From IMG/VR virus record IMGVR_UViG_3300026116_000062, positions 1-42,722 of that record: DNA of 42,722 nt; one strand, 5' to 3'. Below are positions 14,277-19,194 of this stretch, piece by piece. The stretch's first letter is position 1. Each line of letters starts with the position of its first letter. The stretch is from a virus. The position numbers and the translations under genes were made by a program. The notes under the pieces were generated by a model that saw nothing but the letters and a program-made list of their open reading frames with translations, had not been told where the DNA came from and did no database searches.

Positions 14277-14705
14277 ATGACCACCGACACCAAGACCAAG
14301 GCCATCCAGTTCGCGGTCGTCGCCGCACTCACCATCGGCGCGCCGTTCGAGGGCGGCACTTTCGCCGGCGTCATCACCCTGAAGGACGGCACGCACGTCG
14401 CGGTGGCGCTGCTGGCCGACAAGCCTGGAAATCGCCTGGAATGGAGCGATGCCAAGGCGTGGGCTGAAGGCCTCGACGCCAGCCTGCCCACGCGGCCGGT
14501 CGCGGCGCTGCTCTACGCCAACGCCAAGGCGCAGTTCGAGCCCGACTGGTACTGGACGGCCGACACGGTCGATGCCGACACCGGCCGCAAGTCCGACGCC
14601 TCCTACGCCTGGAGCTGCAACTTCAACTACGGCTACCAGTACAACGTCCACAAGAGCTACGAAGGCCTGGCCGTGGCCGTCCGCTTGATTCCCTTGACGG
14701 CTTGA
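14277..14705 (+). CDS. DGR-type variable protein 1 (DUF1566/Lcl-like fold, 142 aa)
   Basis: A DUF1566/Lcl-like, C-type-lectin-fold protein of the kind used as targets by diversity-generating retroelements. Conserved core residues include LEWSDAKAWAEGL, LPTRPVAALLYANAK and DWYWTADTV. The last 29 codons before the tail (residues 108-136: SYAWSCNFNYGYQYN...GLAVAVR) match the usual DGR variable-region layout. The 130 bases upstream hold no gene. It forms a tandem pair with 14758. In DGR phages such proteins usually bind ligands; here the ligand is unknown and an early, non-structural location is unusual. Confidence 0.75.
   Translation: MTTDTKTKAIQFAVVAALTIGAPFEGGTFAGVITLKDGTHVAVALLADKPGNRLEWSDAKAWAEGLDASLPTRPVAALLYANAKAQFEPDWYWTADTVDADTGRKSDASYAWSCNFNYGYQYNVHKSYEGLAVAVRLIPLTA
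14598..14684 (+). repeat. variable region copy VR1
   Basis: An 87-base segment homologous to 15112-15198. The two copies differ at 13 bases in 9 of 29 codons, all in codon positions 1 or 2, with every third base identical. Twelve of the differences have A in one copy; the thirteenth is T versus C, compatible with an A template. The final 21 bases contain no adenine and do not differ. Confidence 0.85.
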
Positions 14706-14757
14706 TCCTTCGATCCTTCAAGTCGTCGCCCTGACCCCACCCCACAACGGAGAGACC

Positions 14758-15207
14758 ATGTCCGACCTCACCCTGGAGGCCTTGAAGGCCGACTACGAAT
14801 CGCTGGGCGCGCGCATCGCCGCCTACGAAGCGAACCGCCCGCGCGTGCTCAGCCTGCCGGAGGTCAACGTGGAGCTGCGCACCGGCGAACGTTACGCCGG
14901 CGCCGTGCTCAACGAAGACGGCTCGGCCAAGCACCATCTGGTGCTGCTGCCCGCGCGCCCGACCGGACGCATGACCTGGGCGGACGCCGGCACCTGGGCC
15001 AAGGAATCCGGCGGGGAACTGCCGACTCGTCAGGAGGCCGCGCTCCTGTTCGCCAACTGCAAGCCGCACCTCACGGACGACTGGCACTGGACGAGCGAAG
15101 AGCACGAGAACGCCTCCTACGCCTGGGGCTGCGACTTCCGCAACGGCACCCAGTACGGCACCCTCAAGAGCTACGGAGGCCTGGCCGTGGCCGTCCGCAG
15201 GTTCTGA
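14758..15207 (+). CDS. DGR-type variable protein 2 (DUF1566/Lcl-like fold, 149 aa)
   Basis: Paralogue of the preceding gene, with a different N-terminal helix (LEALKADYESLGARIAAYEA) and the same fold markers: MTWADAGTWAKES, LPTRQEAALLFANCK, DDWHWTSEE. Its last codons (residues 119-147: SYAWGCDFRNGTQYG...GLAVAVR) are a second variable region. The SD-like CGGAGAG lies just before the ATG. Outside the variable region the two proteins are clearly diverged, while the 87-base repeat is nearly identical apart from non-synonymous changes: the expected result of two targets overwritten from one template. Confidence 0.75.
   Translation: MSDLTLEALKADYESLGARIAAYEANRPRVLSLPEVNVELRTGERYAGAVLNEDGSAKHHLVLLPARPTGRMTWADAGTWAKESGGELPTRQEAALLFANCKPHLTDDWHWTSEEHENASYAWGCDFRNGTQYGTLKSYGGLAVAVRRF
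15112..15198 (+). repeat. variable region copy VR2
   Basis: Second copy of the 87-base repeat described at 14598-14684. Both copies are followed within about 25 bases by the shared 11-mer CTTCGATCCTT (14708-14718 and 15217-15227), which may belong to the homing initiation site or be a leftover of duplication. Confidence 0.85.
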
Positions 15208-15244
15208 CCTTCGGTACTTCGATCCTTAGAACTGAGCCCCACTA

Positions 15245-15520
15245 ATGGCCCTGCATACCGAATTGCCCATCCACCGAACTGGCCGACGCCTCCTGGCGTT
15301 GGCGGTGAAGGTGCAAGTGCAGATGCCTCGCACTGTGAAGCGAATTCTGGGCGACCAGATCATGCAGCACTGCGTGGACATGCTCGCGCTGATGGCCCTG
15401 GCGAACGCGTCGACGGTCAGGAGCAAGGCGAGCATTGACGCGCGGGCGAGAAGGCGAGACACTTCAGCCGTCGCCGCACATTCGGCGACCGGGTTTGGCG
15501 ACCTGATTGGAGCGGTGAAG
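15245..15520 (+). pseudogene. avd: truncated Avd-like (four-helix bundle) DGR accessory gene
   Basis: Residues 1-56 resemble the four-helix-bundle accessory proteins (Avd/bAvd) of diversity-generating retroelements: MALHTELPIHRTGRRLLALA, QMPRTVKRILGDQI, DMLALMALANAS. After about base 15412 the similarity stops, and the frame runs on without a stop through a terminator and the next gene to 16270. The second half of the bundle is therefore missing. Intact family members are usually about 110-130 residues. Its place, 38 bases after the second variable gene, is where Avd normally sits. A small intact relative is not excluded, but the lack of a stop argues for a remnant. Confidence 0.6.
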
Positions 15521-15551
15521 AGCCGCCACGTTTCCGTGCTGCGGCTTTTTT
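15521..15551 (+). terminator. intrinsic terminator after the DGR remnant
   Basis: Stem AGCCGC (15521-15526) with GCGGCT (15541-15546), extended by CACG/CGTG around a TTTC loop, followed by TTTTT. It separates the DGR cassette from the structured RNA and HNH-type gene. Confidence 0.8.
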
Positions 15552-15574
15552 CACGCCTGTGCATGCCCCTCTAT

Positions 15575-15690
15575 GGGCGGCCCGGGCGGGAGAGCCGCGA
15601 GGCTCTGCCGGTGCTCCACCGGTTCGCCAACCCGCCCGGTGCTGCCCACCCGTTTGGCGACGGGGGCAGTTCGAACACCGAACTGGAGCA
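15575..15690 (+). ncRNA. structured RNA resembling C4 antisense RNA
   Basis: Outer pairing GGGCGGC (15575-15581) with GCTGCCC (15641-15647). Inner stem GGGCGGG (15584-15590) with CCCGCCC (15631-15637) encloses a hairpin AGAGCC-GCGA-GGCTCT (15591-15606) and a hairpin CCGG-TGCTCCA-CCGG (15608-15622), giving a three-way junction. Next come hairpin CCCG...CGGG (15649-15664) and perfect hairpin CAGTTCG-AACAC-CGAACTG (15667-15685). TCGCCAA (15624-15630) is complementary to TTGGCGA (15654-15660), and loop TGCTCCA (15612-15618) to TGGAGCA (15684-15690), which contains the GGAG of the next gene. This architecture recalls the C4 antisense RNA of phages P1 and P7; family assignment is inference. Confidence 0.65.
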
Positions 15691-15695
15691 TGGCA

Positions 15696-16148
15696 ATGAG
15701 CAACCCCAACGGGAACGTGAAGCACGGCGGCCACGGCACGCTGACCTATGCGCGTTGGAAGTCGATGATGCAGCGCTGCACCGACACCAACGCGGACAAC
15801 TTCAAGCACTACGGCGCGCGCGGCGTGACGGTGTGCGAACGGTGGCACGACTTCGCGTCGTTCCTCACGGACATGGGGCCCTGCCCCGACAAGTCCATGA
15901 CGCTCGACCGGCTCAAGAACGAGCTTGGCTACGAGCCGGGCAATTGCCGCTGGGCAACCAAGGCGCAGCAGAACGCGAACCGCTCGCACTGCGTCAGGCT
16001 GACCCACGATGGCAAGACTCTCAACCTTGCCGATTGGGCGCCCATCGTGGGCCTGTCCGCCAACGTGCTGGCGCTGCGCCTGAAGCGTGGATGGTCGGCC
16101 GAGAAAACTCTGACGACGCCGAAGTTCGGCGGCCGAGTTTCTCGCTAG
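15696..16148 (+). CDS. HNH/AP2-type homing-endonuclease-like protein (150 aa)
   Basis: Free-standing phage protein with the pattern TYARWKSMMQRC...HYGARGVTVCERW, then MTLDRLKNELGYEPGNCRWA (the DR..N..GY...NCRW motif of phage HNH/AP2-like endonucleases), and a C-terminal DNA-binding-type segment (WAPIVGLSANVLALRLKRGW, HTH-like as in NUMOD/AP2 modules). GGAG at 15685-15688 is 7 bases from the ATG at 15696; the ATG at 15690 is too close. That GGAG pairs with the loop of the upstream structured RNA, so translation is probably RNA-controlled. Homing activity is inferred. Confidence 0.7.
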   Translation: MSNPNGNVKHGGHGTLTYARWKSMMQRCTDTNADNFKHYGARGVTVCERWHDFASFLTDMGPCPDKSMTLDRLKNELGYEPGNCRWATKAQQNANRSHCVRLTHDGKTLNLADWAPIVGLSANVLALRLKRGWSAEKTLTTPKFGGRVSR

Positions 16149-16272
16149 CCGCGGGTTTGCTGCGGCAGGCCACACACAGCCACGCCGATCGCGCGCGTCT
16201 GGCCAACGCTGTCCGCCGGCGTGGTCACTGCGTGAGCGGCGACCTCACCAAGACTTTCAGGAGGGCATGAAG
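16149..16272. other. short intergenic stretch with no visible feature
   Basis: A 124-base gap between the HNH-type gene and the next gene. Only the AGGAGGG ribosome binding site at 16259-16265 stands out; no promoter or terminator could be recognised. Confidence 0.4.
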
Positions 16273-17162: not shown

Positions 17163-18454
17163 CCGGCAAGACCCTTGCGGCCATCGAGCCCGAGCTGCCT
17201 TTCACCGAGCAGCAAACCACGGACATCGCGAACTGCCTCCTGTCCATCGGCTGGAAATGCGATGGTGACGCACAGTGGACGCGTCTGATGCACTCGGCCA
17301 ATACCCTGCGCGCAGCAATTGCCGCCCACGTCGCGAAGGCTCCTGCAGCCGGAGAAGTGGCGGGGCTGGTGGATTCGATCATCCGCGACCTTTCCGAGCT
17401 GCCCGACTACACGAGTCCCGACGAGTGGCCGGACGCGCTGCTGGCCACGCCTGACGAACTGCGCGTCGTTCTTGAGCGGCACCTCGCTTCCCTGGCATCC
17501 ACCCCGGTGGGTGAGGTGGCCGGGCACCACCCTGTCAGCGCCGAGAAGGCTGTGGAGGTTGACGCGCTGATTGGCCTTCGTGAACTGCCCCCGATCCGAC
17601 TCACGATCCAAGAGGTTGAGGCGTTGAACGAACGAGCGGCGGGCCGAGGAATCATCGTCCAGGCGCATGTGCGCGAACTGCTGAGGGAATCGCTCGCCGC
17701 ATCCCCCGCACCCGCAGGGGGTCAGGTGGCGCAAGGGGCGGTGGCGCGAGAGCGGTGCGACGAATGCTCGACGCCAGCGCACTGCAAGTCATTCGCCTAC
17801 GAGAACTGCGCCTATCCCAAGGTTGGTCAGCCTCCCGCCCCAGCATCGCCCGCAGAGCCGAGCGAGGCTTTCGGCCGATGGTACGCCCGGCGCATCGTGG
17901 AGGACTCCGATCCGCCTTGCGCTGGCGATGCGCTTGAGGGCTGGAACGCCGCCCTCGCCACCGCCACCACCGCTGATCCGGTGGCGACTCCCTCCGCGCC
18001 AGCTGTGCAGGCTGATGCCGCCCAAGGATGGGAAGGCGCCGAAGAGTGGATGCCGCTTGCGTGGGAACTGTGCGCCGAAGAGAACGGCGAGGAATCCTGC
18101 AATGAACTGGTGTGGGAGGGCGGCCCGATCCCTGAACCGTGGGGCGACCGCTGGCTGAAGTACGAGGACGAGGCCAAAGCGCTGATCGCGCTGGTGCGCA
18201 AGTGCGTTGCGATGGCCGACCCATCCGCGACAGCGCAGGCCCTGCAGGCGGGGCAAGCCGATGCGCTGGCTGACCTGTGGGAGCAGTCGGCAGCCGACGT
18301 CGCCGCTGCGGCTTCGTGGAACGAGTACCAGAAGGGACTGGCTGAAGGGCTGCGCCAGGCCGCACGAGACCTTCGCGCCACCCAGCAACCCACACCCCAA
18401 CAGGAGGCCGACATCGCCGCTTCTCCTGCTGGCGAGGAAGGGGTGGGGTCGTGA
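17159..18454 (+). CDS. large mosaic hypothetical phage protein (431 aa)
   Basis: A modular protein with alanine/proline linkers between short folded pieces: an N-terminal helical region (FTEQQTTDIANCLLSIGWKC), a middle part with CDECSTPAHCKSFAYENC (possible zinc site), an FGRWYARRIVEDSDP segment, and a C-terminal helical part (LWEQSAADVAAAASWNEYQK). This mosaic build, with repeated GEVAG linkers, is typical of large variable early phage proteins (Ea22-like in style). No function can be assigned. Confidence 0.55.
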   Translation: MTGKTLAAIEPELPFTEQQTTDIANCLLSIGWKCDGDAQWTRLMHSANTLRAAIAAHVAKAPAAGEVAGLVDSIIRDLSELPDYTSPDEWPDALLATPDELRVVLERHLASLASTPVGEVAGHHPVSAEKAVEVDALIGLRELPPIRLTIQEVEALNERAAGRGIIVQAHVRELLRESLAASPAPAGGQVAQGAVARERCDECSTPAHCKSFAYENCAYPKVGQPPAPASPAEPSEAFGRWYARRIVEDSDPPCAGDALEGWNAALATATTADPVATPSAPAVQADAAQGWEGAEEWMPLAWELCAEENGEESCNELVWEGGPIPEPWGDRWLKYEDEAKALIALVRKCVAMADPSATAQALQAGQADALADLWEQSAADVAAAASWNEYQKGLAEGLRQAARDLRATQQPTPQQEADIAASPAGEEGVGS

Positions 18455-19194
18455 GCCGCGTTGTCTCCTGGTTCTCGTGCGGGGCTGCATCCGCCGTCGC
18501 TACGAAGCTGGCGAAGGCTCAATTTTCCGACCGCGAGTTCATCATCGCGCGATGCGTCATTGACGAGGAGCACGAGGACAACGACCGGTTCGCCAGTGAC
18601 TGCGAATTGTGGTTCGGCCAGGAGATCGTCAACCTCACCAGCGCTAAGCACGGCAGCAGCATCGAAGCGCTGTTCGACCGTCGCAAGGGCATGAGCTTCA
18701 TCCACGGCGCACCTTGCACGATGCTGCTGAAAAAGGAAGTCCGAGAAGACTTTCAACGCCCGACCGACACGCACGTTTTCGGCTATTGCGCCGAGGAGCA
18801 AGCCCGCTGGGATTCATTCTTGGACGCGAACAACATCCAGGCTGTGGCGCCACTGATCGAGCGAGGTCTTGAGCACCGCGATGCACTCGCGATGGTGGAG
18901 CGGGCCGGCATCAAGCTGCCGACGATGTACCTGCTGAACTACCACCACAACAACTGCAAGGGCTGCGTCAAATCCAAGGGCGCCGGCTACTGGAACAAGG
19001 TGCGCACGGACTTCCCCGTCGTGTTTCACCGACGCGCAGAGCAGTCTCGCCGCCTTGGCGTTCGACTGGTCGAGGTGGATGGAGAGCGCATCTTCCTTGA
19101 CGAGCTACCGGCAGGCATCGGCCGCTACCAAGACGAACCCGAGATTCAGTGCGGCATCTTTTGCGAGATGGCGCAGAAGGAGTACACCGCATGA
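18451..19194 (+). CDS. phage PAPS reductase-like (ATP-PPase fold) protein
   Basis: A 247-aa protein of the adenine nucleotide alpha-hydrolase/PAPS reductase family. The PP-loop at residues 6-16 reads SWFSCGAASAV, replacing the canonical SGGKDS; this is the usual phage variant. Near 168-182 lies CKGCVKSKGAGYWNKV, a conserved cysteine pair of the phage subfamily. Not a true assimilatory PAPS reductase by context. Suggested roles include nucleotide or DNA modification (a relation to DndC-type enzymes is only by fold). GTG start overlapping the previous gene's stop. Confidence 0.82.
   Translation: MSRVVSWFSCGAASAVATKLAKAQFSDREFIIARCVIDEEHEDNDRFASDCELWFGQEIVNLTSAKHGSSIEALFDRRKGMSFIHGAPCTMLLKKEVREDFQRPTDTHVFGYCAEEQARWDSFLDANNIQAVAPLIERGLEHRDALAMVERAGIKLPTMYLLNYHHNNCKGCVKSKGAGYWNKVRTDFPVVFHRRAEQSRRLGVRLVEVDGERIFLDELPAGIGRYQDEPEIQCGIFCEMAQKEYTA

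Follow-up and report, generated by a model that had tools for sequence, protein, structure and literature searches.

The window analysed here, an IMG/VR virus contig taken as the whole record of 42,722 bp (66% G+C), very likely carries a recently killed and replaced DGR of a temperate phage, a reading to which a probability of about 0.85 is assigned. Comparison with relatives shows an ancestor of the order VP1-VP2-Avd-TR-RT, in which the reverse transcriptase (RT) copied the template repeat (TR) with adenine errors into the variable repeats (VR1 and VR2) of two tandem target genes. A replacement then removed the TR together with about 90% of the RT and the second half of the accessory gene Avd. 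Two stumps remain, the start of Avd and the last 38 codons of the RT, and between them a C4/isrK-like antisense-RNA module and an HNH-type gene now stand. The reading is supported by Burkholderia phage Magia and by many contigs, in which the cassette is still intact. The window cassette is dead in cis and, as the core is lost, VR1 and VR2 are probably frozen as last written. Related phages have also repeatedly lost the engine, and a nuclease gene often occupies the vacated site.

Tandem target genes and their variable repeats

Two tandem open reading frames on the plus strand, VP1 (14277-14705, 142 aa) and VP2 (14758-15207, 149 aa), are each closed by an 87-nt repeat, VR1 at 14598-14684 and VR2 at 15112-15198, of which VR1 was aligned with the TRs of relatives. 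The coordinates of the two repeats given in a sequence-only reading of this DNA were reproduced, as were the 13 differences between them, which fall at the first (seven) and second (six) codon positions and never at the third, an outcome with a probability of 0.005. The same holds for the presence of adenine in one copy at 12 of the 13 differences, the exception being T/C at 14647, and for the identity of the final 21 nt; adenine-specific differences and an invariant 3' end, as in a functional DGR, are therefore present. Upstream of the repeats the two genes are as clearly diverged as had been claimed, with 37% of the residues common to the two proteins and 40% of the third positions differing. 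VR1 is identical in a contig (L125/L134) with 2 mismatches to the window in 14,781 bp, an identity which is uninformative on activity because the contig is so close to the window.

VP1 is a Lcl_C/DUF1566-like C-type lectin, 58% identical to VP1 of the nearest intact relative, locus L064, and both targets match the Pfam family PF07603 (Lcl_C) with scores below the curated cut-off (E 0.0076 for VP1 and 0.0009 for VP2). An AlphaFold2 model of VP2, fed by an alignment of 27 VP2 proteins (pLDDT 95.6), has a C-type lectin domain preceded by a helix at the N-terminus; its top Foldseek match is the C-terminal domain of Legionella Lcl (8q4e, E 1.6e-5), further C-type lectins match as well, and VIA-align gives Z scores of 12.9 to 8q4e and 14.1 to Bd2740 (8oks). 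VP2 is thus predicted by the model to be a C-type lectin with a C-terminal VR, as in Lcl_C/DUF1566 targets, its Pfam score notwithstanding, and the homologous gene of Burkholderia phage Magia is annotated as lectin-fold and a possible DGR target. The two genes lie among early genes, with an Erf-like annealing protein and an exonuclease before them and an integrase after them; since these are not tail genes, a receptor-binding role of VP1 and VP2 is not to be assumed. A PAPS reductase-like gene (phrog_424, 18451-19194) lies between the dead DGR and the integrase.

The template, the stumps of the core and the insert

The search for a TR slid along both strands of the 42,722-bp record, which is incomplete and devoid of head genes, and tolerated mismatches at template adenines alone; it found none. 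No RVT_1 match was found in the record, and neither TR nor RT occurs in the 3.7 kb further upstream contributed by L125/L134. The sequence-only reading had reported neither TR nor RT in the window, which is right for the TR and for any RVT_1 match; a remnant of the RT nevertheless exists at 16154-16267, having escaped the Pfam model because it is too short. Also absent from that reading were the C4/isrK RNAs, the HNH-type gene at the core site and the recurrence of core loss.

Relatives supplied real templates for comparison. A search with a degenerate VR pattern retrieved many viral contigs with the order VP1-VP2-Avd-TR-RT, among them L064, which aligns with the window at 68% over 1.1 kb. The proposed diversification of both genes from one TR is borne out by the matching TRs of such relatives, which the sequence-only reading had not seen and in which adenines stand where VR1 and VR2 differ: the L064 TR has 22 adenines, and 12 of the 13 differences coincide with one of them (hypergeometric P about 4e-8), while all 13 coincide with one of the 26 adenines of the L080 TR (P about 1e-8). 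In the variable half, a template inferred from VR1 and VR2 alone agrees with the L064 TR at 57 of 60 bases, as counted by eye on the printed sequences. The IMH halves of the window and L064 differ, so that the window's own TR was a relative of that of L064 and not the same TR. A scan of genome contigs for the window's own IMH half gave no match, and the nucleotides of the window had nothing beyond short matches in phage records. Searching viral contigs with a single VP2 protein also gave no matches, and the VR-core pattern and the VP2 alignment succeeded instead.

A translated comparison of the window with L064 reveals two islands beyond the targets, the start of Avd and the last 38 codons of the RT, which are separated in the window by about 740 bp; these have replaced the TR, the remainder of Avd and about 90% of the RT. 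The Avd remnant (15245-15436, plus strand) comprises the first 57-64 codons or so, the second half being gone; it matches phrog_3206 ('Avd protein of DGR', E 2.1e-6) and is 70% identical to the L064 Avd over 64 residues, in keeping with the earlier suggestion that it marks the former cassette. The NCBIfam model DivGenRetAVD matches below its cut-off (E 0.0027), and DNA homology to the L064 Avd stops at 15412. The RT remnant (16154-16270, plus strand, including the stop) is 82% identical in amino acids and 78% in nucleotides to the RT 3' end of L064, which is likewise placed after Avd; 35 codons are open and the changes are chiefly at third positions, a bias of RT tails that fits purifying selection and recent loss equally. 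A functional DGR would need a whole Avd and a DGR-type RT, of which the window holds the first half and the last 38 codons, respectively. The stumps stand in syntenic order beside the VR-bearing targets, as in L064 and Magia, and the persistence of the RT end downstream of the HNH-type gene indicates that the core was physically replaced. Of the two states offered earlier, a defective system or one working in trans, the RT tail beyond the HNH-type gene favours the former. A single frame of 341 codons (15245-16270) begins with Avd, crosses the insert without interruption and closes with the stop of the RT; it is judged accidental because it is out of frame with the HNH-type gene.

The insert begins with three RNA matches on the plus strand, namely c4-a1b1, the target leader of C4 antisense RNA (15457-15509, RF03163, 45.6 bits, E 1.7e-10, gathering score 46.7), an isrK-like RNA with an intrinsic terminator at its end (15470-15551, RF01394, 47.2 bits, gathering score 50) and a C4 antisense RNA matched over the entire model (15569-15653, RF01695, 51.8 bits, exceeding the gathering score of 45). 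The first two are slightly under their cut-offs; the C4 RNA with its leader upstream is in the order of a C4 locus. No downstream antirepressor follows, the next gene being the HNH-type gene (15690-16148, plus strand, 152 aa, starting at 15690 or 15696), which occupies the DGR-core site and belongs to the phrog_3377 family ('HNH endonuclease', E 2.2e-48 for the ORF 15573-16148). Its product has no Pfam or NCBIfam HNH match; homologues 52% and 51% identical occur at the same place in L174 and L339, and the HNH proteins of L143, L150 and L321 match the HNH_3 model. The C4/isrK leader may control the HNH-type gene, by analogy with isrK-orf45-anrP. Since duplex energies of the C4 RNA with its supposed target stretches were no better than those of shuffled sequence, pairing is claimed no further than the Rfam matches and a shared TCGCCAA complement go. 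The exact C4 pattern retrieved no further viral contig.

Core loss in related cassettes

Scans with the VP2 alignment yielded 56 loci in genomes and 80 in viral contigs, amounting to 120 distinct loci. In 83 of them the RT body spans 250 or more aligned residues and was taken as intact. The RT-less class comprises 20 loci, in which the targets form a tandem pair and no such RT is present even though the DNA continues for 2.2 kb or more; the remaining 17 are cut short, single-target or otherwise unclassifiable. An HNH gene stands at the core site in 8 of the 20 RT-less tandem cassettes (L143, L150, L174, L300, L315, L321, L339 and L346). This compares with none of 119 intact loci having such a gene between the targets and the RT end (Fisher P 4e-8) and 6 of 119 having one within 1.5 kb downstream (P 8e-5). 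Both P values are indicative, since some of the HNH queries were taken from these very loci and part of the 119 had been selected for an RT tail.

The RT tail is kept in 8 of the 20 RT-less cassettes; a tail-based scan had suggested that it is always kept upon RT loss, a notion dropped after the target-based survey. Where tails survive (L143, L150, L174, L190, L196, L204, L205, L267, L315, L321, L346 and the window), the right breakpoint is confined to a stretch that begins about 55 codons ahead of the motif NSYFG and ends just beyond it, and never lies earlier in the RT. Candidate causes of this clustering at the RT 3' end are a hotspot, a nuclease site or selection. The left edge of the core loss varies among loci.

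Several RNAs accompany these cassettes. A second core-less DGR has isrK and C4 before an HNH gene of the HNH_3 type, with a small ORF between (L321:5050-5232), and an sRNA-Xcc1 match (RF02221, 54.1 bits) lies between the VP2 and HNH genes of an RT-less cassette (L346:3811-3898). RT-15 RNA (RF03018) is found between Avd and the TR site at L174:6812-7003, L140:6740-6894 and, below the gathering score, L339:5323-5485; it forms a structured leader in DGRs of this type and persists in L174, where TR and RT are gone.

As to the agent of the replacement, a likely candidate is the HNH gene itself or a relative, which would cut DGR-bearing DNA much as free-standing homing endonucleases act in T4-like phages. 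The core would then be converted away if the copy used for repair had no DGR but was bounded by VP2/Avd on one side and the RT tail on the other. Such a homing-type removal and plain deletion are given roughly even odds. A plain illegitimate deletion, in which homing plays no part and the C4/HNH block is a later or chance arrival, falls just short of an even chance: 12 of the 20 RT-less cassettes carry no HNH gene, including L190, in which the core deletion left an in-frame Avd::RT-end fusion (L190:6338-6826), and L322, in which VP2 is fused in frame to the last RT residues (L322:692-775), so that plain deletion also occurs and HNH genes are possibly later occupants. It accounts less well for the enrichment of HNH genes at the core site and for the same two boundaries in L143 and L150, whose losses were probably separate. 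The broader proposal that HNH endonucleases home into temperate-phage DGR cores and repeatedly freeze cassettes, sometimes under C4/isrK antisense-RNA control, is tentative, the balance lying somewhat against it.

The age of the losses was approached through the VR pairs. Third-position differences number 3 of 172 in RT-less and 9 of 799 in intact loci (Fisher P 0.45), and further pairs read by hand agree, except for L301, in which an insertion breaks the register. Such pristine pairs in RT-less loci imply that the losses are recent or that rewriting continues in trans. L143 (Paraburkholderia silviterrae) and L150 (P. antibiotica) have related HNH genes (76% nucleotide identity) at the same boundaries, after the VP2 stop and before ANSYFG of the RT. 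Their third positions differ by 46% in the HNH genes and 55% in the VP2 genes, and neither VR pair has a third-position change, whereas a shared ancestral loss predicts about 12 per pair; a shared old loss is hence very unlikely, and the data fit either independent losses at one and the same site or a conversion templated by a donor.

Continued rewriting of both VRs by an RT and TR in the missing part of the phage, in the host or in a co-resident prophage is unlikely. In its favour, VR pairs are equally clean in cassettes with and without an RT, the window record lacks head genes, and the L205 record, a candidate for activity in trans, has an RVT_1 match (G030:C1:8944-9480) far from a cassette that lost its TR and RT. 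The other 19 of 20 RT-less viral records have no RVT_1 match, TR and RT are missing from the window record and from the additional upstream DNA, and the single genome scan for the window's IMH half was empty. Moreover, in the three lysogens L143, L150 and L174 the host genome has no match to the DGR RT apart from the retained tail, which argues against rewriting in trans in the L143 and L150 strains.

An assembly chimera, in which the metagenome assembler joined an unrelated C4/HNH stretch into a DGR, is highly improbable: the junctions are indeed covered by a single assembly, the second contig (L125/L134) ending inside VP2 at window position 14781, but further records and isolate genomes show this arrangement too (L143, L150, L174 and L321) and the stumps stand in the expected order. 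That no DGR was ever involved, and that paralogous lectin genes merely diverged under positive selection or gene conversion, can practically be dismissed, for although tandem paralogues may exchange DNA, the adenine-only logic fits the TRs of relatives, no third position changes in the VRs as against 40% upstream, and Avd and RT stumps exist.

Comparison with known systems

DGRs are usually catalogued by their RT, and cassettes without one are therefore easily missed by RT-based searches. The present set places 20 tandem-target cassettes without an intact RT beside 83 loci with one, the VRs of the former preserving the last written state. Such before-and-after pairs bear on the worth of hypermutation to a phage, on the frequency of its loss and on homing endonucleases as agents. 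If homing into DGR cores is true, gain and loss of the DGR at this site would be a fast turnover by competing mobile elements. No paper describing HNH genes that replace DGR cores was found in the literature covered, which was incomplete.

The antirepressor locus c4-ant of P1/P7 is controlled by C4 antisense RNA. Another C4/IsrK antisense-RNA antirepressor locus is isrK-orf45-anrP of Gifsy-1 (PMC4825925). The window has the same order of leader, isrK-like terminator, C4 RNA and gene; unlike in the antirepressor loci, the downstream gene is HNH-type and the regulation is putative.

The free-standing seg/mob endonucleases of T4-like phages carry out intronless homing, in which repair co-converts the flanks and leads to marker exclusion (PMC2988022). 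The likeness lies in a phage nuclease gene standing between conserved flanks in place of DNA that relatives have; the putative excluded marker in the window differs in being a retroelement core, and its cleavage is hypothetical.

A further parallel is the DGR of Burkholderia phage Magia, together with related DGRs that lie in early regions and have a tandem pair of lectin targets; they share the VP1-VP2-Avd order, and their targets, Avd start and RT end are homologous to those of the window. Magia and L064 retain the RT, whereas in the window most of the RT is gone, as are the TR and half of Avd.
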